64,000 nucleotides of DNA from Anaerolineales bacterium (GCA_020060465.1 JAGVAD010000024.1:62001-126000); one strand, 5' to 3'. Positions 25,907 through 33,958 are shown, numbered from the stretch's first letter. Numbers and translations: made by a program. Notes: generated by a model from the letters alone, not told the origin.

Positions 25907-27784
25907 TTATGGATTCACCCTGGGTTTGCGGCGATTCGGCAACTGTGTGCCGGGGCCGTACTGATACACATCGGCCCATGGTAAATAGTGAGTAATAAAC
26001 GTATCGGTAAAGAGCACCTGTCCATCGCGGTAAACTGTGCGCGTAACCGTCACATCGGCGCCTTCAGCGGCCCAATCCACCTGTACGATCTCGCCTTCAG
26101 CCAGTTCTGGATTTTCTTCATATACCGGATCAGGCGGTTCGACAATGTTCTGTGGCCCGGTAGTTTCCCACTCCACACGGCGGCCATCGGAAGTCGAATA
26201 GAATTTCCATGTCAGGCTGCGCGAGTTGGGGCGGAAATAAGTTTCCATCAGTAACCAGTATGGTGTGTCGTTCGTGAATTTGAAATCCACCACCGGCACA
26301 AAAACCGTGGCGTCCAGGCCAGCCAGGCGATCATCCCAGCCGTTGGCGGTTTGCTCGTAGTATCCGACGCGGTAAGCGTGGGGGTAACGCTCGACAATGG
26401 GGAAACCGGCAAAGAAAGCGGCGCGGAACAAGGTGGTGCTGACCTGGCACACCCCGCCGCCCACGCCTTTGATCGTGCGCCCGCCATAGATGATCCAGGC
26501 TTCGGCGTAACCCGTGTCCAGGCTGACGTTTCCCATCACGCTGGCCATGGAGAACACCGCGCCGGGCGGCACCAACAATCCGTGGAAGTTCGCCGCAGCC
26601 ATTTCGATATTTTGCAGCCGCTCGGCGGATGAGCCGCGGAAATAGGTGGTGTAGGAGATGATTTGCTCGCGGATGCCAAGTTGTTCCCCCGTGGCCTCAT
26701 TTCCGACTTCTGGTTGCGTGTACACCAGGGGAAGAGAGACCGTGCGTTGCCCGGCGGCGATTTGGGCGTTAATCGTTTTGATCGCCGTGTAAACGTCCAG
26801 ATTACGGCCAACAACCGCGGGTTTGATTAATTCCAACTGGCGGGTATCATCGTTAAAGATAAAACGGGCGTTTTCCGGCTGACGGTTGATGCTGCCAGCC
26901 AGAGAATTCAGATAAGTGTACAAAGCCTCTTCATCCAGCGCGACCTGATACGTTGCGCCGTTCGAATCTTCTACCCGCTGAATAGTCAACATGGCGGCCA
27001 GTTGCTCGCGTGGCACCTCCCATGGGCCAGGGTCGCCGGCCGCAGTTTCTGGCAGGGTCAGGGTCAATGGGGCGCTGAGGATGCGGCGCGCCGCCTCCGC
27101 CTGCTGGCTGGCGTCCAAAATGGCCGGCGGGGTCTCTTGAACCACCAGGGGGATGACCCCATCCGACAGGCTGCGCATCTGTTGTTCCAACGGAGCTAAG
27201 GTTGCGGCGATGTCAATCTGGACCCCAATTTGCCCAGGCACGGCGATCACTTCTAGACCGTTGACGCTGAGCGATGCATCGAGGGTTGGGCGGTTGATCT
27301 GCGCCGCAATTTGCGCCAAATAGTCGCGTGCCAGACGTTCGTCAAAGGTCAACGCCAGGGGCAAATTCTCCCCCGAATGCCAGGCGCCCAACCGCTGCGC
27401 CAGACGCTTGAATGGGTTGCCGCTGCGCCCCACCCGATAAGCTGCCTGGGCGTTGGCTTCGACATCCAGGCTCAGCCCCAATTCTTGCGGGCGAGCCGCC
27501 CAGATATGCTCTTGATACTGAAAGACGATTTTGCCAGTCTGGGGATAGGTGATTCTGGCTGCCAGCAAGACCGCGGCGTCTTTCTCCGTCAAGCCGCTGA
27601 GATCAATCCCTGCAACCGATATGCCAGGATAGATTTTGCTGGCGTAAGATAACCCGCTGCCTAGCAGAAGCGCCAGCGAAAATACGAGGAATAACGCCAA
27701 ACCACCCACTACGGACGCAATCCATTGCAGCAAAAAGGTTGCGTCGGATGGGCGTCTGCGTTGCGTCACAGGATATACGGTCAT
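25907..27784 (-). CDS. VanW family protein with peptidoglycan-binding domains
   Basis: A 625-residue surface protein. After a cytoplasmic stub one membrane helix (WIASVVGGLALFLVFSLALLLG) anchors it. Two repeated peptidoglycan-binding-like domains follow (about 60-380), each beginning like GIDLSGLTEKDAAVLLAARI. The VanW domain spans about 400-540, with AANFHGLLVPPGAVFSMASVMG and KGVGGGVCQVSTTLFRAAFFAG. A C-terminal extension contains WAAEGADVTVTRTVYRDG. VanW proteins accompany vancomycin resistance loci but are widespread cell-wall proteins of unclear reaction. The start is ATG 27784; the longer ORF lacks a signal. Confidence 0.87.
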   Translation of the reverse strand: MTVYPVTQRRRPSDATFLLQWIASVVGGLALFLVFSLALLLGSGLSYASKIYPGISVAGIDLSGLTEKDAAVLLAARITYPQTGKIVFQYQEHIWAARPQELGLSLDVEANAQAAYRVGRSGNPFKRLAQRLGAWHSGENLPLALTFDERLARDYLAQIAAQINRPTLDASLSVNGLEVIAVPGQIGVQIDIAATLAPLEQQMRSLSDGVIPLVVQETPPAILDASQQAEAARRILSAPLTLTLPETAAGDPGPWEVPREQLAAMLTIQRVEDSNGATYQVALDEEALYTYLNSLAGSINRQPENARFIFNDDTRQLELIKPAVVGRNLDVYTAIKTINAQIAAGQRTVSLPLVYTQPEVGNEATGEQLGIREQIISYTTYFRGSSAERLQNIEMAAANFHGLLVPPGAVFSMASVMGNVSLDTGYAEAWIIYGGRTIKGVGGGVCQVSTTLFRAAFFAGFPIVERYPHAYRVGYYEQTANGWDDRLAGLDATVFVPVVDFKFTNDTPYWLLMETYFRPNSRSLTWKFYSTSDGRRVEWETTGPQNIVEPPDPVYEENPELAEGEIVQVDWAAEGADVTVTRTVYRDGQVLFTDTFITHYLPWADVYQYGPGTQLPNRRKPRVNP

Positions 27785-27841
27785 GGCGAGTATTGTACCA
27801 AAGATTAGCTGCCCAAAACTTATTGTTGACCTGCAGTGTAT

Positions 27842-27912
27842 TTGGTCATGAACACACCGCAGGTTTCTGATGAGGGCAACCTGCGGGAGGTTTTGCATCG
27901 TGAATATCAATA
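27842..27912. repeat. Dispersed hairpin repeat, family B copy 1
   Basis: TTTGGTCATGAAC...CCGCAGGTTTCTG...AACCTGCGGGAGGTTTTGCATCGTGAAT. CCGCAGGTT (27857-27865) pairs with AACCTGCGG (27878-27886). The flanks and stem match the copy at 48252-48332. It lies between the divergent VanW and macroglobulin genes. Confidence 0.7.
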
Positions 27913-27935: not shown

Positions 27936-27994
27936 TCAACCCATAGACGGAACTACCCACGGATTGGTTTCGTCCTGTGTGCAAAGGAGAAAAC

Positions 27995-30900
27995 ATGCAT
28001 AGCTTCCCAGAGAAACCGCCAGCGCCTCGGTTTCAAACATTGGCGCGATGGGCGCCCTTGCTGTTGATCATCGTTGCAATGGCATGCGCCTTGCCTTTCG
28101 CCAGCAAGCCCACGCCGACCCGCTGGTCGCCTTCGCCGACGCCCAGCCTGCCACCCACCGCAACTCCCACGCCACAGCCTCAACCGCCAGCGTTGGTGGA
28201 AATTGACCCCCCGGTTAACGCCGAATTGCCCCTGAACGGGCCAATTACCCTGTATTTCAATCAGGACATGGATCGCGCCTCGGTGGAAGCCGCGTTGACC
28301 AGCCAGATGGGCGCCGGCCTGGCGTTTACCTGGGTGGACAACTCAACCGTGATTGTATATCTCAGCGCCCCGCTCCAGCCGGATACGCAGCTTAGCTTGA
28401 TGGTCAGCGATAATGTACGCTCCGCGCAGGGCAAACCGCTCTTGCAACCCATCAGCCTGAATTATCGCACAGCCGGCTTTTTGGGGTTATCCTTAAATCT
28501 GCCGGAGAATGGCGCAGTGGATGTTGACCCGACGGCGGCAGTTGTGGCAGCGTTTAACCGCCCCATCGTGGCTTTGGGCGCAGATCCGGCTTCCTTGCCG
28601 CAGGCTTTCAGCCTGGAGCCGGCGGCGCAGGGCCGCGGCGAATGGCTGAACACCAGCACCTACGCCTTTTACCCCTCGCCCTCGCTGGAGGGCGGAAGAC
28701 AATACACGGTGCGCCTCAACCCGGAGTTGAAGAGCGCCGACGGCGGGCCGTTGAAAGGCGAGACATCGTGGAGTTTCACCACCTCTCGCCCGCAGTTGCT
28801 TTCTCTGGAGCCGGTCAGCGAAATCCCCTGGCGGTTAGACGCCCAAGTTGTGCTGCATTTCAACCAGCCCATGGATACTGCCAGCGTCGAAAACAACTTC
28901 AGCCTGCTGGGACCAAACGGCGATGCCGTCCCCGGCAAAGCGAGCTGGAGCGAAGAAGATACAGTTTTCACTTTTACGCCCAACGCTTTGCTGACGCGCG
29001 GCGCAACTTATACTGTGACCCTGAATGGTCAGGCGCAGGGGCGCGGTGGAGCGCCTTTGGGTGAGACCTTCAACGCTTCGGTTATCACCGTCGCGCCGCT
29101 GCAGGTGGTGAACACCGAGCCAGGCGCAGGTGTTCCGCTGGATCCAGCCAACAACCTGGGGCTGTATTTCAGCGCGCCCATACAAGAAAAAGAGGTGTTG
29201 CAACACATTTCTCTGGAACCCGCGGTATCCAACCTGGACTATTATTGGGATGAATCGGTGTACGCATTGCACCTGCGCGGTGCTTTTGCTCCCAATACGA
29301 CTTATACCCTGCGCGTTTCCGGTTTGATGGACGTGTGGGGCGGAGCAATGAGCCAGGATTTCGTGCATACGTTCACCACTTCGTCATTACGACCCAACAT
29401 TAACCTGATCTCCGCCACCTCGACGATCTACCTGACGGCGCAAGACCGCAGTTTACAGGTGCAAGCGGTGAACTTGCCCAGCGTTCCTCTTTCGTTGGGC
29501 GCGCTGCCGCTCAGGGATTTCCTCGCTCTGAACGGGCCGGGTGGCTACGAAATGCAGGATGATCTGCAACGCAGGGAACGCCAGAGCTGGGTGCAAGCGC
29601 TGGATAGTCCCTCCGATCGAATGCAGGTCGCGGAGCTTTACCTCTCGCCAGACCGCGCTCCTTTAAATCCGGGTTTATACTTCCTCAACTTCAATTTTTC
29701 ACAGGCGGCAGATCCCTCTCTAAGAAACATCTACTCTGGGCCATTCCTGCTGGTGGTGAGCAACTTACAATTGACCTTCAAAGCCAGCGCCACGGATGCG
29801 TTGATTTGGGCGGTGGACTTGCGGAATAATTCGCCAGTGGCAAACGCTCCAGTGATTTTGTACAATGAAAAAGGCGACATACTGGCGCAGGGTCAAACTG
29901 ACTCTCAAGGCATTTACCAGGCGACCTATAATCCGCTGGAGAGCGTCTATCAAACGGTTACAGCAGTGGTCGGGCAGCCGGGGGAAGACCTGTTCGGCCT
30001 GGCGCTCTCCTCCTGGACTGCTGGCATCGAACCGTGGGATTTTGGCCTGCGCGGCGGTGGAAACCCGCCCGGCTTGCGGGCTTACTTCTACACCGACCGC
30101 CCCATCTATCGCCCCGGGCAGACGGTCTATTTCCGCGCCATCCTGCGCAACGCCAGCAATGGGCGCTACACCCCGCCAGGGATCGCTCGTTTACCGGTGA
30201 CGATCGGCGGCGACGATGGACGAACACTGGCCGAATTCGAACTGCCCGTCTCTGGCATGGGGACGGCGCACGGACAATTCGTCCTACCCGACGACGCCAC
30301 GCCGGGATACTATTCACTTCACACCTCGCTCGATATGAACTCCTATCTGGGCTTTCAGGTCGCGAACTACCGCAAACCAGAGATCAACTTACAGGTCAGC
30401 TTTACTGAAGAACAGGTCCAGGCTGGCGATAAACTCAAAGCGACGGTTCAGGCGCGCTATTTCTACGACGCCCCAGCCAACAACCTGGAGGCGCATTGGG
30501 CGCTCTACCGGACGCGTGCGTTCTTTGATCTGCCTGGCTTCCGGGTTGGAAAAGAGGACACTTCCTGGTTAGATGCGTTCCGCTATCCGGAGTGGTTTAC
30601 CAACCTGGGTGAGTTGGTGGACGAAGGCCAGGCAAGCACCGATGCGGAGGGTTTATTCTCGCTGGAATTTCCCACCCAGCCAACCGACGAACGCTATCAA
30701 TACTCGCTGGAAGTGACCCTTACTGACGAAAGCGGTTTGCCGGTGTCGGCGCGCAGCAACGCCCTGGTGAACCCCGATGCCTTCTATATTGGCATCCGAC
30801 CAGACGCCTGGGTTGGTCGGGCTGGCGAACAGGCCGGTTTTGACATTCAGGTTGTGGACTGGCAACAGAATCCGACCGAGGCGAGCAGCCTGCGCGCCGA

Positions 30901-33900
30901 GTTTCAGAAGGTTGTGTGGCGGCGCATTGATCCGCCAGCCAGCGAGCCGTATGAATCGCCCAAATTTGAGCCGCAATACACGCCGGCTGGCAGCACAGAT
31001 TTCGCCGCCGATGCGCAAGGCAGAGCGCGGCTGGCGTTCACCCCCACAGAGCCTGGCACCTACCTGCTGGATGTATATCACCTGCAAGCGGCGCAGAGCA
31101 AAGGCGCGCGTTCACAGTTTTTGTTATGGGTGGGCGGCGCAGGTCAGGCAATCTGGCCGAACCTGCCCAATTCGCGCTTGCGCCTGGTTGCCGATCAAGC
31201 CAGTTATCAACCCGGCGACACGGCGCAGGTCTTCATTCCCAATCCTTTCGGGAAGACCGTGCCAGCCTTGCTGACCATTGAGCGCAGCGTGGTAATGAAA
31301 CATGAGATCCTCTCTATCCCCGCCGAGGGTTACAACCTGAGCCTGCCGCTGCCCGCGGATTACGCGCCGAACGTATATCTCTCCGTGACGCTGCTCAGCG
31401 GCGATGAACCAGGCGCGCCGGACTTCCGCCAGGGTTACCTCAACATTCCGGTAGCGCCGCTTGAGCAGATTTTGCAAGTCCGGTTGGTCAGCGAACCGCA
31501 GCGCGCCGCGCCGGGCGACGCGGTGACTTTTGATTTACAGGTGACAGACTCTGCTGGCAATCCAGTGCAGGGAGAATTTTCATTGTCTGTGGTTGACCTG
31601 GCCGTGCTGGCTTTAGCGGAGCCAAATTCGCCAGACATTGTCAGCGCTTTTTACGCCGAACAGCCCATCGGCGTGCGTACCAGCCTGGCGCTGGCGGCTT
31701 ACAACCGACGGCAAATGAACCTGGCCGCCGGGATGGGCGGAGGCGGTGGAGCGGAGGCGCCGCAGGTGGCGCGCGAGAATTTCCCCGATACCGCCTACTG
31801 GAACGCCGAGATCATCACCGACGCGGATGGCCGGGCGCAAGTCCATTTAAACCTGCCGGATACTCTGACTACCTGGCAGGTGGAGACGCGCGGCGTGACG
31901 CAAGATACCCGCGTCGGTCAGGCGCGGACCCAGGTGATCGCCACCAAAGAACTTCTGATACGACCGGTGACGCCGCGCTTTTTCGTGGTGAACGACCACG
32001 CTCAAATTTCAGCCGTAGTGCAGAACAACACCGACCTGGCAATGCGGGTGGAAGTCTCATTGCAATCCAACGGTCTGCTTCTGGACGATGTAAGCCGTCA
32101 GACGCAGCAGGTGGATGTCCCCGCCCGCGGGCGCGCCCGACTGGAATGGTGGGGCGTGGTGCAGGATGTAGCCAGCGTTGACCTGATCTTCTCAGCACAG
32201 AGTGGTTCTTATCAGGATGCTGCCCGTCCAGCTCTGGGCGCTTTGCCGGTGCTGCGTTATATTGCCCCACAAACTTTCCGAACTTCGGGCGTGCTGGACG
32301 CTGCCGGAGAGTTGACCGAGTTGGTCAGCCTGCCGCGCTCTTTCGATGCGCAAAACGGCGAATTGGATATTGAGCTTTCTCCATCGCTGGCGGCGGCGAT
32401 GAGCAAGTCGCTGGATGCGCTGGAGACCCAACCCTACGAAAGCGCAGAGCAAACATTGTCCAGCTTTTTGCCCAATCTGGAAACTTACCGTACCTTGCAA
32501 ACCTTTGGCATTGAGGATCCAGGGTTGAAGAGCCGTCTGGATCGCACACTTAATCAGGGCTTGCTGCGCTTGCTGGCGCGCCAGAATTACGACGGCGGTT
32601 GGGGCTGGTGGAAAGGCGAAGAGAGCGACGCCTACGTCACTTCCTATGTACTTTTTGGCTTGCTGCGCACCCGCCAGGCGGGGATCACAGTCAGCCAGGA
32701 TACAATCCAGCGCGCCATAGATTACCTGAAAGAAGCTAAGCCGCAAAGCTCTGATGGTGGACAACCCTTACAACCCTGGCAATGGGATCGTTTGGCGTTC
32801 CAGGAATATGTCTTGAGCGAGGCCGACGCAGGAGACGCAGAGGCAATCGCCCAATTGATTCAGGAGCGTGACCAGCTCAGCCCGTGGGCGCAGGCGCTCT
32901 TAGCCCTGGCGTTACAGCGCCAACAACCAGGCGCGAGTGAAGCGCAAACCATCCTGTCGGATTTGCAGTCTAATGCGGTGCGTTCTGCCACTGGCGCGTA
33001 TTGGGAAATGCGTCAGGATGAGAGCGCTTTATTGGCCGCGGGCATGAACATGCAAACCAATCTATCTAACAGCGCCATTGTCTTGTTTGCTCTGGCGCAG
33101 CGCGACCCCGGCTCACCACTGGTTGCGGATGCAGTGCGCTATCTGATGGCAAACCGCAGCGCCGACGGCGGCTGGGCGTCCACCTACTCCGCCGCCTGGA
33201 CGTTGCTTGCCCTGAACGAGGTCATCCAGGGCACCGGCGAATTGGCGGGTAATTTTACTTTCGACGCTGCGTTGAACGGCAATGTGATCGCCCAGGGAAA
33301 AGCCGCCCAAGCGCAACAAATTACACCCGTGATTGCCCAGGCGCCGCTGAATCGGCTCTACCCGGATTATCCAAATCCGCTGACCATCCGGCGAGACGGA
33401 GGCGCGGGGCGTCTCTACTATGCGGTTGGATTACAGGTCAGCCGTCCAGTTGAAGAAGTTACGCCGCTGTCGCAAGGGATGAGCCTTGAGCGCTCCGTTT
33501 ATCCATTCGGCGAGACCTGCGCCCCAGAGCCTTGCAAACCGATTCAATCCGCAAAAGCCGGACAAAAGGTCACTGTACGATTGACGCTCACTGCGCCGCA
33601 CGATCTATACTATCTGGCAGTATCGGATTACATCCCTGCTGGCGCAGAGATTTTGGACACACGCCTGCAAACCAGTCAGCTTGGCCTGGATGCTGAACCA
33701 GAGCTGCAAACCATCTATGATCCGCGCCGGCCATATAGCCGAGGTTGGGGCTGGTGGCTATTCAATGCACCGCAAATCTACGACGATCACATTTCATGGA
33801 CCATCCGTCATCTACCGGCGGGGACATACGAACTTACCTATACGCTGGTGCTGCTCCAGCCCGGCGAATATCGCGCCCTGCCCGCCCGCGCCTGGCAGCT

Positions 33901-33958
33901 CTACTTCCCAGAGGTGCAGGCCAACAGCGCCGGTTCGGTGTTCGAGATTCGCCCTTAA
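27995..33958 (+). CDS. Giant alpha-2-macroglobulin-family lipoprotein lacking the thioester cysteine
   Basis: A 1987-residue surface protein. The signal LLLIIVAMACALPF predicts a lipoprotein, followed by a Pro/Thr linker. Then come several Big/Ig-like modules (residues about 65-480, repeats of the type FNQPMDTASVENNF and AGFLGLSLNLPENGAVDV) and macroglobulin domains (YFYTDRPIYRPGQTVYFRAILR). Next is the MG7/A2M core (ELLIRPVTPRFFVVNDHAQI) and the thioester-type helical domain. There the usual PYGCxEQT thioester motif reads PYESAEQTLSSFLP, with Ser1483 in place of the reactive cysteine. Bacterial relatives trap or inhibit proteases, and cysteine-free members such as MagD also exist. Start ATG 27995 has AAAGGAGA. 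It is single-gene and follows its own promoter region. Confidence 0.9.
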   Translation: MHSFPEKPPAPRFQTLARWAPLLLIIVAMACALPFASKPTPTRWSPSPTPSLPPTATPTPQPQPPALVEIDPPVNAELPLNGPITLYFNQDMDRASVEAALTSQMGAGLAFTWVDNSTVIVYLSAPLQPDTQLSLMVSDNVRSAQGKPLLQPISLNYRTAGFLGLSLNLPENGAVDVDPTAAVVAAFNRPIVALGADPASLPQAFSLEPAAQGRGEWLNTSTYAFYPSPSLEGGRQYTVRLNPELKSADGGPLKGETSWSFTTSRPQLLSLEPVSEIPWRLDAQVVLHFNQPMDTASVENNFSLLGPNGDAVPGKASWSEEDTVFTFTPNALLTRGATYTVTLNGQAQGRGGAPLGETFNASVITVAPLQVVNTEPGAGVPLDPANNLGLYFSAPIQEKEVLQHISLEPAVSNLDYYWDESVYALHLRGAFAPNTTYTLRVSGLMDVWGGAMSQDFVHTFTTSSLRPNINLISATSTIYLTAQDRSLQVQAVNLPSVPLSLGALPLRDFLALNGPGGYEMQDDLQRRERQSWVQALDSPSDRMQVAELYLSPDRAPLNPGLYFLNFNFSQAADPSLRNIYSGPFLLVVSNLQLTFKASATDALIWAVDLRNNSPVANAPVILYNEKGDILAQGQTDSQGIYQATYNPLESVYQTVTAVVGQPGEDLFGLALSSWTAGIEPWDFGLRGGGNPPGLRAYFYTDRPIYRPGQTVYFRAILRNASNGRYTPPGIARLPVTIGGDDGRTLAEFELPVSGMGTAHGQFVLPDDATPGYYSLHTSLDMNSYLGFQVANYRKPEINLQVSFTEEQVQAGDKLKATVQARYFYDAPANNLEAHWALYRTRAFFDLPGFRVGKEDTSWLDAFRYPEWFTNLGELVDEGQASTDAEGLFSLEFPTQPTDERYQYSLEVTLTDESGLPVSARSNALVNPDAFYIGIRPDAWVGRAGEQAGFDIQVVDWQQNPTEASSLRAEFQKVVWRRIDPPASEPYESPKFEPQYTPAGSTDFAADAQGRARLAFTPTEPGTYLLDVYHLQAAQSKGARSQFLLWVGGAGQAIWPNLPNSRLRLVADQASYQPGDTAQVFIPNPFGKTVPALLTIERSVVMKHEILSIPAEGYNLSLPLPADYAPNVYLSVTLLSGDEPGAPDFRQGYLNIPVAPLEQILQVRLVSEPQRAAPGDAVTFDLQVTDSAGNPVQGEFSLSVVDLAVLALAEPNSPDIVSAFYAEQPIGVRTSLALAAYNRRQMNLAAGMGGGGGAEAPQVARENFPDTAYWNAEIITDADGRAQVHLNLPDTLTTWQVETRGVTQDTRVGQARTQVIATKELLIRPVTPRFFVVNDHAQISAVVQNNTDLAMRVEVSLQSNGLLLDDVSRQTQQVDVPARGRARLEWWGVVQDVASVDLIFSAQSGSYQDAARPALGALPVLRYIAPQTFRTSGVLDAAGELTELVSLPRSFDAQNGELDIELSPSLAAAMSKSLDALETQPYESAEQTLSSFLPNLETYRTLQTFGIEDPGLKSRLDRTLNQGLLRLLARQNYDGGWGWWKGEESDAYVTSYVLFGLLRTRQAGITVSQDTIQRAIDYLKEAKPQSSDGGQPLQPWQWDRLAFQEYVLSEADAGDAEAIAQLIQERDQLSPWAQALLALALQRQQPGASEAQTILSDLQSNAVRSATGAYWEMRQDESALLAAGMNMQTNLSNSAIVLFALAQRDPGSPLVADAVRYLMANRSADGGWASTYSAAWTLLALNEVIQGTGELAGNFTFDAALNGNVIAQGKAAQAQQITPVIAQAPLNRLYPDYPNPLTIRRDGGAGRLYYAVGLQVSRPVEEVTPLSQGMSLERSVYPFGETCAPEPCKPIQSAKAGQKVTVRLTLTAPHDLYYLAVSDYIPAGAEILDTRLQTSQLGLDAEPELQTIYDPRRPYSRGWGWWLFNAPQIYDDHISWTIRHLPAGTYELTYTLVLLQPGEYRALPARAWQLYFPEVQANSAGSVFEIRP

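Follow-up and report, generated by a model that had tools for sequence, protein, structure and literature searches.

Parallel loss of the thioester cysteine in a lineage of Chloroflexota alpha-2-macroglobulin lipoproteins

The window, a stretch of 64,000 nucleotides from an Anaerolineales bacterium, encodes an alpha-2-macroglobulin (A2M) lipoprotein in which serine occupies the position of the thioester cysteine, and which very probably works without covalent capture. Comparison with its relatives demonstrates, at the level of sequence, descent from a thioester-bearing ancestor, with loss of the cysteine and accompanying changes in those residues of the thioester domain (TED) and of the C-terminal MG10 domain by which the thioester is covered; by the same evidence the bait region, the TED fold and the TED-MG10 contact remain. 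The reading that we favour, with a probability of roughly 0.55, is that of a lipid-anchored surface A2M that would dispense with covalent capture and act as a non-covalent protease trap.

The gene (27995..33958, plus strand) encodes 1987 amino acids from an ATG codon with AAGGAG a few bases 5' of it; an alternative in-frame start upstream, GTG at 27977, gives an open reading frame of 1993 codons with the same end at 33958. Residues are numbered from the ATG unless the GTG count is indicated, and the former numbers are obtained from the latter by subtracting 6 (Ser1489 in the GTG count is Ser1483). In Pfam the domains follow the order Big_5 (four copies), bMG3, MG2, bMG5, bMG6 (weak), BRD, A2M, TED and bMG10, so that the bacterial A2M architecture of MG domains, BRD, A2M, TED and C-terminal bMG10 is complete and ordered, with which the fold matches agree. 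In particular, the four Big_5 modules of the N-terminal region (28187..29401, limits approximate) are followed on the plus strand by bMG3 (29756..30055), MG2 (30077..30325), bMG5 (30383..30775), the bait-region domain A2M_BRD (31178..31615), the MG7-like A2M domain (31790..32062), the TED (32366..33256) and the bMG10 or CTMG domain (33476..33913), which packs on the TED in the AlphaFold model. The predicted bait region between the BRD and MG7 contains a glycine-rich loop, the putative bait loop AAYNRRQMNLAAGMGGGGGAEAPQVAR, with inferred limits at 31682..31774 on the same strand. Pfam and the predicted structure describe the TED as an alpha-helical toroid. A squalene-cyclase-like identity, to which NCBIfam gave weak matches only, was rejected, because the alpha-toroid common to the TED accounts for these matches.

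The first-pass annotation called the protein giant, which is correct insofar as it is longer than E. coli YfhM (1987 versus 1653 amino acids), but the difference is modest and about 2000 amino acids is the usual length in the Chloroflexota family. The same annotation took the many Big-like modules as a pointer to function; they have no bearing on it, the N-terminal half being common to thioester-bearing paralogues (conserved columns 71-299). Its proposal of lipoprotein anchoring fared better: the signal peptide has a lipobox whose cysteine (IIVAMA / CALPF, codon 28085..28087, plus strand) is the predicted lipid-anchor site, this cysteine is aligned in nearly all relatives, including every Cys-less orthologue whose sequence is not gapped there, and both Lgt and LspA are present in the genome.

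The motif PYESAEQT (32432..32455, plus strand) includes Ser1483, encoded by AGC at 32441-32443, and retains the glutamine (codon 32450-32452). HMMER aligned it to PYGCGEQ of human A2M, and the family profile aligned it to YPYGCLEQ of Salmonella A2M (SaA2M) and YfhM, placing Ser1483 on Cys1187 of E. coli YfhM; the translated open reading frame and both alignments thus confirm the serine that had been noticed at the position of the thioester cysteine. Besides the lipobox residue, the only cysteines of the window protein are Cys1848, Cys1853 and one that precedes the ATG codon, and a scan of the TED found none. Since a thioester cannot form in a TED without cysteine, the window protein has no thioester, in agreement with what had been claimed. 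The expected motif had been given as PYGCxEQT. The replacement of Cys by Ser stands, but the expectation proper to this lineage is PYECTEQT, the motif of thioester-bearing relatives in Chloroflexota; as Glu already replaces Gly in these proteins, the key change is that from Cys to Ser. In the thioester A2Ms of the two orthogroups described below, the position before the cysteine is mostly Glu, Asp or Ala, versus the canonical Gly (PYECTEQ for PYGCxEQ).

About 100 relatives were collected by searching 60 related genomes and scanning public genomes once. The nearest named relative, 90% identical, belongs to a MAG labelled Anaerolinea thermophila, and the source of the window is therefore a member of the Anaerolineae. 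Trees built without the motif columns (an LG tree and, for orthogroup A, a mixture-model tree) contain orthogroup A, to which the window protein belongs, and its sister B, which includes a paralogue from the same genome (L005:4047-10106, contig C47) that carries PFACVEQT and is 36% identical over its full length. The cysteine is absent from 30 of the 42 A proteins (Ser in 18, Asn in 5, Phe in 3, Thr in 2, Asp in 2), and Glu-Gln is also gone in 21 of these 30; in B it is absent from 2 proteins and kept in 27/29. Parsimony places seven changes in A on both trees and two in B. Because B and the outgroups carry Cys, the changes are losses, and on these trees the cysteine was lost on at least seven branches within A. 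The two orthogroups are of similar depth (median pair distance 1.49 in A versus 1.34 in B), thus A is not simply older.

The serine of the window protein is common to a clade of six species (SH-aLRT 99) that stands beside the Cys-bearing L010. Conservation of the serine had been suggested as a check, and it extends to the nearest relatives, the clade including two same-genus relatives of the window with PFESAEQ and PFQSTEQ. Homologues with cysteine had been named as one half of a possible refutation; they do exist, both as orthologues with PYECTEQT and as the same-genome paralogue, but the finding stands, since they show that the cysteine was lost.

The loss of the cysteine is accompanied by a change in a distant residue. 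According to a study of cleaved E. coli A2M, the protective pocket around the thioester is made up in part of Met1625 and Tyr1626, along with Tyr1175 and Tyr1177 of the TED (PMC4498604). Residue 1975 in the GTG count (1969 from the ATG) corresponds in the alignment to the Met1625 that caps the thioester within the EXMY motif of Salmonella A2M, and is Leu in the window protein (codon 33899..33901, plus strand), whereas nearly all thioester-bearing relatives have Phe or Met. The Tyr1175 position is filled by Gln, so that YPY of the TED and Met-Tyr of EXMY in the CTMG are represented by QPY and Leu-Tyr. We scanned 384 columns conserved in A and B proteins with an intact motif and compared them with the proteins without it. 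The median drop in conservation was 0.02, and the largest drops (GTG count) were observed at the cysteine, by definition, at MG10-1975 (Phe, from 0.97 to 0.03), and at Gln1492 and Thr1493; Phe1497, which follows the motif, and Tyr1487 and Pro1486, all of the same pocket, are also in the top ten. The cysteine aside, MG10-1975 is the column that best tracks the intact motif, and it lies 486 residues from the serine: it is Phe in 31 of 32 intact A and B proteins and in none of the 30 Cys-less A proteins.

In thioester-bearing groups outside A and B, for example those with PFECSEQ or PYGCVEQ, this position is mostly Met. There are several exceptions: L021 has Cys and EQ in an otherwise degenerate motif, with Ser at 1975; L053 has an intact motif and Thr; L107-L109, with PYGC or PNGC, have Tyr; and the Cys-less B protein L062 keeps Phe. 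An independent-pairs test of MG10-1975 against the motif gave 5.6 of 7 pairs in agreement and 0 in disagreement, with p ~0.03, which is a single-column value at the limit of the power of the test, 384 columns having been scanned. The column had been chosen in advance, on the basis of published work, and its rank in the scan is a stronger argument than the pairs test. We read the TED and MG10 residues as two sides of one pocket that probably relax together. The identity of MG10-1975, the Met1625 position, would then report on the use of the thioester.

Against the 90%-identical same-genus relative, dN/dS is 0.081 for the gene, 0.054 for the TED and 0.048 for CUB/MG10. The serine is older than the split of these two proteins, hence the constraint acts on the thioester-less form; this protein is complete, and the ratios show that purifying selection on it is strong. 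Both the BRD and the glycine-rich bait loop are kept in 29 of the 30 Cys-less A orthologues. In the B protein L079 (G002:C99), N in the assembly leaves the residues of the bait loop unread. AlphaFold models of the C-terminal 730 residues, which say nothing on chemistry, have pLDDT 85.9 and pTM 0.80 for the window protein and 86.8 and 0.81 for paralogue B. Both are closed like native YfhM and Salmonella A2M (TM 0.69-0.72; 0.69 for the window protein) and unlike cleaved YfhM (TM 0.37-0.39).

As a non-covalent trap, the protein would be anchored by its lipid to the outside of the cell membrane, where a stray or hostile protease would cut the bait loop; the protein would then collapse around the protease and hold it sterically, in the way that has been reported for MagD, a Type II A2M. 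Covalent capture would fall to paralogue B, which keeps the thioester and is encoded next to two cell-wall enzymes, PBP1C and L,D-transpeptidase. MagD, the one bacterial thioester-less A2M that has been studied, has no CXEQ and yet stably holds its bait-cleaving protease non-covalently, by a mechanism that its authors call unclear (PMC5764988). A counter-point comes from other members of the family. Salmonella A2M with its thioester inactivated failed to trap the protease (PMC5764988), and inhibition by two monomeric members, A2ML1 and rat A1I3, depends on the thioester (PMC9156758), so that a monomer without thioester may inhibit poorly.

The poor inhibition by monomeric A2Ms with a dead thioester equally suits another explanation, which we regard as possible but clearly less probable, namely that the protein is no longer an inhibitor and serves the cell envelope as a scaffold anchored in the membrane or as a bait-triggered sensor. 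Its MG ring and TED-MG10 contact would then bind proteins, perhaps the product of the neighbouring gene, a protein with PG_binding_4 and VanW domains (25907..27910, minus strand) that is conserved in the family and is a candidate partner. The window gene is flanked by this divergent gene and by a gene for a DAO-family oxidoreductase. The divergent VanW/PG_binding_4 arrangement is found at ten distinct A loci, both Cys-bearing (L016, L017, L019, L022 and the degenerate L021) and Cys-less (L006, L007, L011, L018 and L023), and strong constraint on conserved surfaces outside the pocket points in the same direction. However, the VanW neighbour was not found at A loci that are more distant and have flanks of 7-8 kb, such as L043, L045, L047, L048, L049 and L060, and the almost universal retention of the bait loop and BRD in the Cys-less orthologues is unexpected if cleavage is irrelevant. 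On balance we favour the trap over signalling or scaffolding; the non-covalent trap or structural role to which the first-pass annotation had pointed is likewise an inference.

The thioester and the MG10 cap have been discarded repeatedly while the bait-triggered machine has been kept, which might mean that selection maintains the conformational switch alone, as a bait-triggered surface sensor or clamp and a bacterial analogue of the transition from C3 to C5. This suggestion is tentative and we consider it rather doubtful; if true, the A lineage would no longer inhibit proteases in the manner usual for the family. Complement C5, a thioester-less animal member, has the same fold and a TED without thioester, but it is a cleavage-triggered assembly protein of animals, and no orthology is implied. 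The best fold matches in the PDB include C5 chains, with scores that hardly separate C5 from thioester-bearing members.

It is very improbable that an internal oxoester between Ser1483 and Gln1486 substitutes for the thioester. Both residues are present in the window protein and in L007, L011 and L012, and internal ester crosslinks between Thr and Gln are described for bacterial adhesins in two reports (PMC12679949, PMC8382745). Within the Ser clade, nevertheless, two of six species, with SFASTERI and PDESTEAT, have lost the Gln, the MG10 cap residue has changed as well, and the position is variously Ser, Asn, Thr, Phe or Asp across A.

Among known systems, the window protein resembles Type I A2Ms (YfhM/ECAM, SaA2M) in being a lipoprotein with the MG domains, BRD, A2M, TED and bMG10 in the same order, in its profile match over the TED and MG10 and in its predicted closed form, like that of the native crystal structures. 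It differs in the absence of the thioester cysteine, in Gln at Tyr1175 (the first protecting Tyr of SaA2M) and Leu at the Met1625 position, in its four Big_5 modules, in its VanW neighbour as opposed to PBP1C, and in its host, which from the known Chloroflexota cell plan we take to be monoderm. The linkage to PBP1C typical of Type I is seen for paralogue B, which PBP1C adjoins, and not for the window gene. We did not file the protein as Type I because the CXEQ motif by which that type is recognised is replaced by SAEQ.

Nor is it at all probable that the protein belongs to Type II (P. aeruginosa MagD, E. coli YfaS) and is thioester-less by inheritance from their ancestor, although it shares with them the absence of CXEQ, the presence of a bait region and a presumed non-covalent action (PMC5764988). 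Its nearest A relatives carry PYECTEQ and paralogue B is also Cys-bearing, which places the loss later and inside a thioester-bearing lineage; much of the motif, PYE-AEQ, is still recognisable. In the A1 profile YfhM outscores the pieces of YfaS (114 versus 61 bits), the yfaS gene of the strain used being broken. DUF1175 and DUF2138, two families of the six-gene mag/yfa operon of Type II, were found neither in the genome, which is 83% complete, nor in the flanks of the gene. We did not file the protein as Type II because these two operon families are absent and the nearest relatives carry Cys; the best reading of the sequences, from trees that covered A, B and their outgroups, is that the loss evolved independently. 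Finally, a sequencing error or a decaying gene, which the draft state of the genome (64 contigs) might have suggested, is refuted by the open 1993-codon frame, by a dN/dS of 0.08 and by the same serine in six species and in independent assemblies.

Paralogue B has the same architecture as the window protein but keeps the thioester motif and the MG10 Phe. Its gene (L005:4044-10106) follows an L,D-transpeptidase gene (PG_binding_4, LysM) and converges on a PBP1C gene (L005:836-3418). This A2M-PBP1C neighbourhood, similar to yfhM-pbpC of E. coli, occurs in a Chloroflexota genome and at several B loci. We also considered complementation, in which the cysteine would be lost only where another thioester A2M is present, and the tally gave no clear association. 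Among genomes with a completeness of 90% or more, a further A2M with Cys, from B or class C, occurs in about 8 of the 11 that lost the cysteine and 5 of the 7 that kept it, absence being uncertain in fragmented assemblies. In G016, G025 and G049 a thioester-less A protein is present and a B or class-C A2M was not found, thus a division of labour between A and B is not general.

Thioester-less A2Ms as such are already known. What appears to be new, as far as the literature searched shows, is a Chloroflexota A2M lineage in which parallel losses of the thioester are numerous and are accompanied by a change of the MG10 cap residue. No mention of A2M together with Anaerolineae or Chloroflexota was found in that literature, to which subscription journals mostly do not belong, and a prior description is possible. 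The seven or more parallel losses, the close intact orthologues and the intact paralogue in the same genome constitute natural matched pairs for the contribution of the thioester.

Two observations concern other A2Ms. A pair of Patescibacteria proteins on short branches, PYYCTEQ in a Gottesmanbacteria MAG (L063:7659-13844) and PYYSTEQ in a Microgenomates MAG (L068:2-3985), represents by its motifs another change between Cys and Ser, in the direction of Ser. A third class of Chloroflexota A2Ms (L095, L096, L097, L098 and L102-L106), of about 2000-2066 amino acids, carries PFECSEQ or PYECSEQ and EEMY in MG10; it co-occurs with A in several genomes, and one copy, G017:C1:3171360, has an in-frame TAG.
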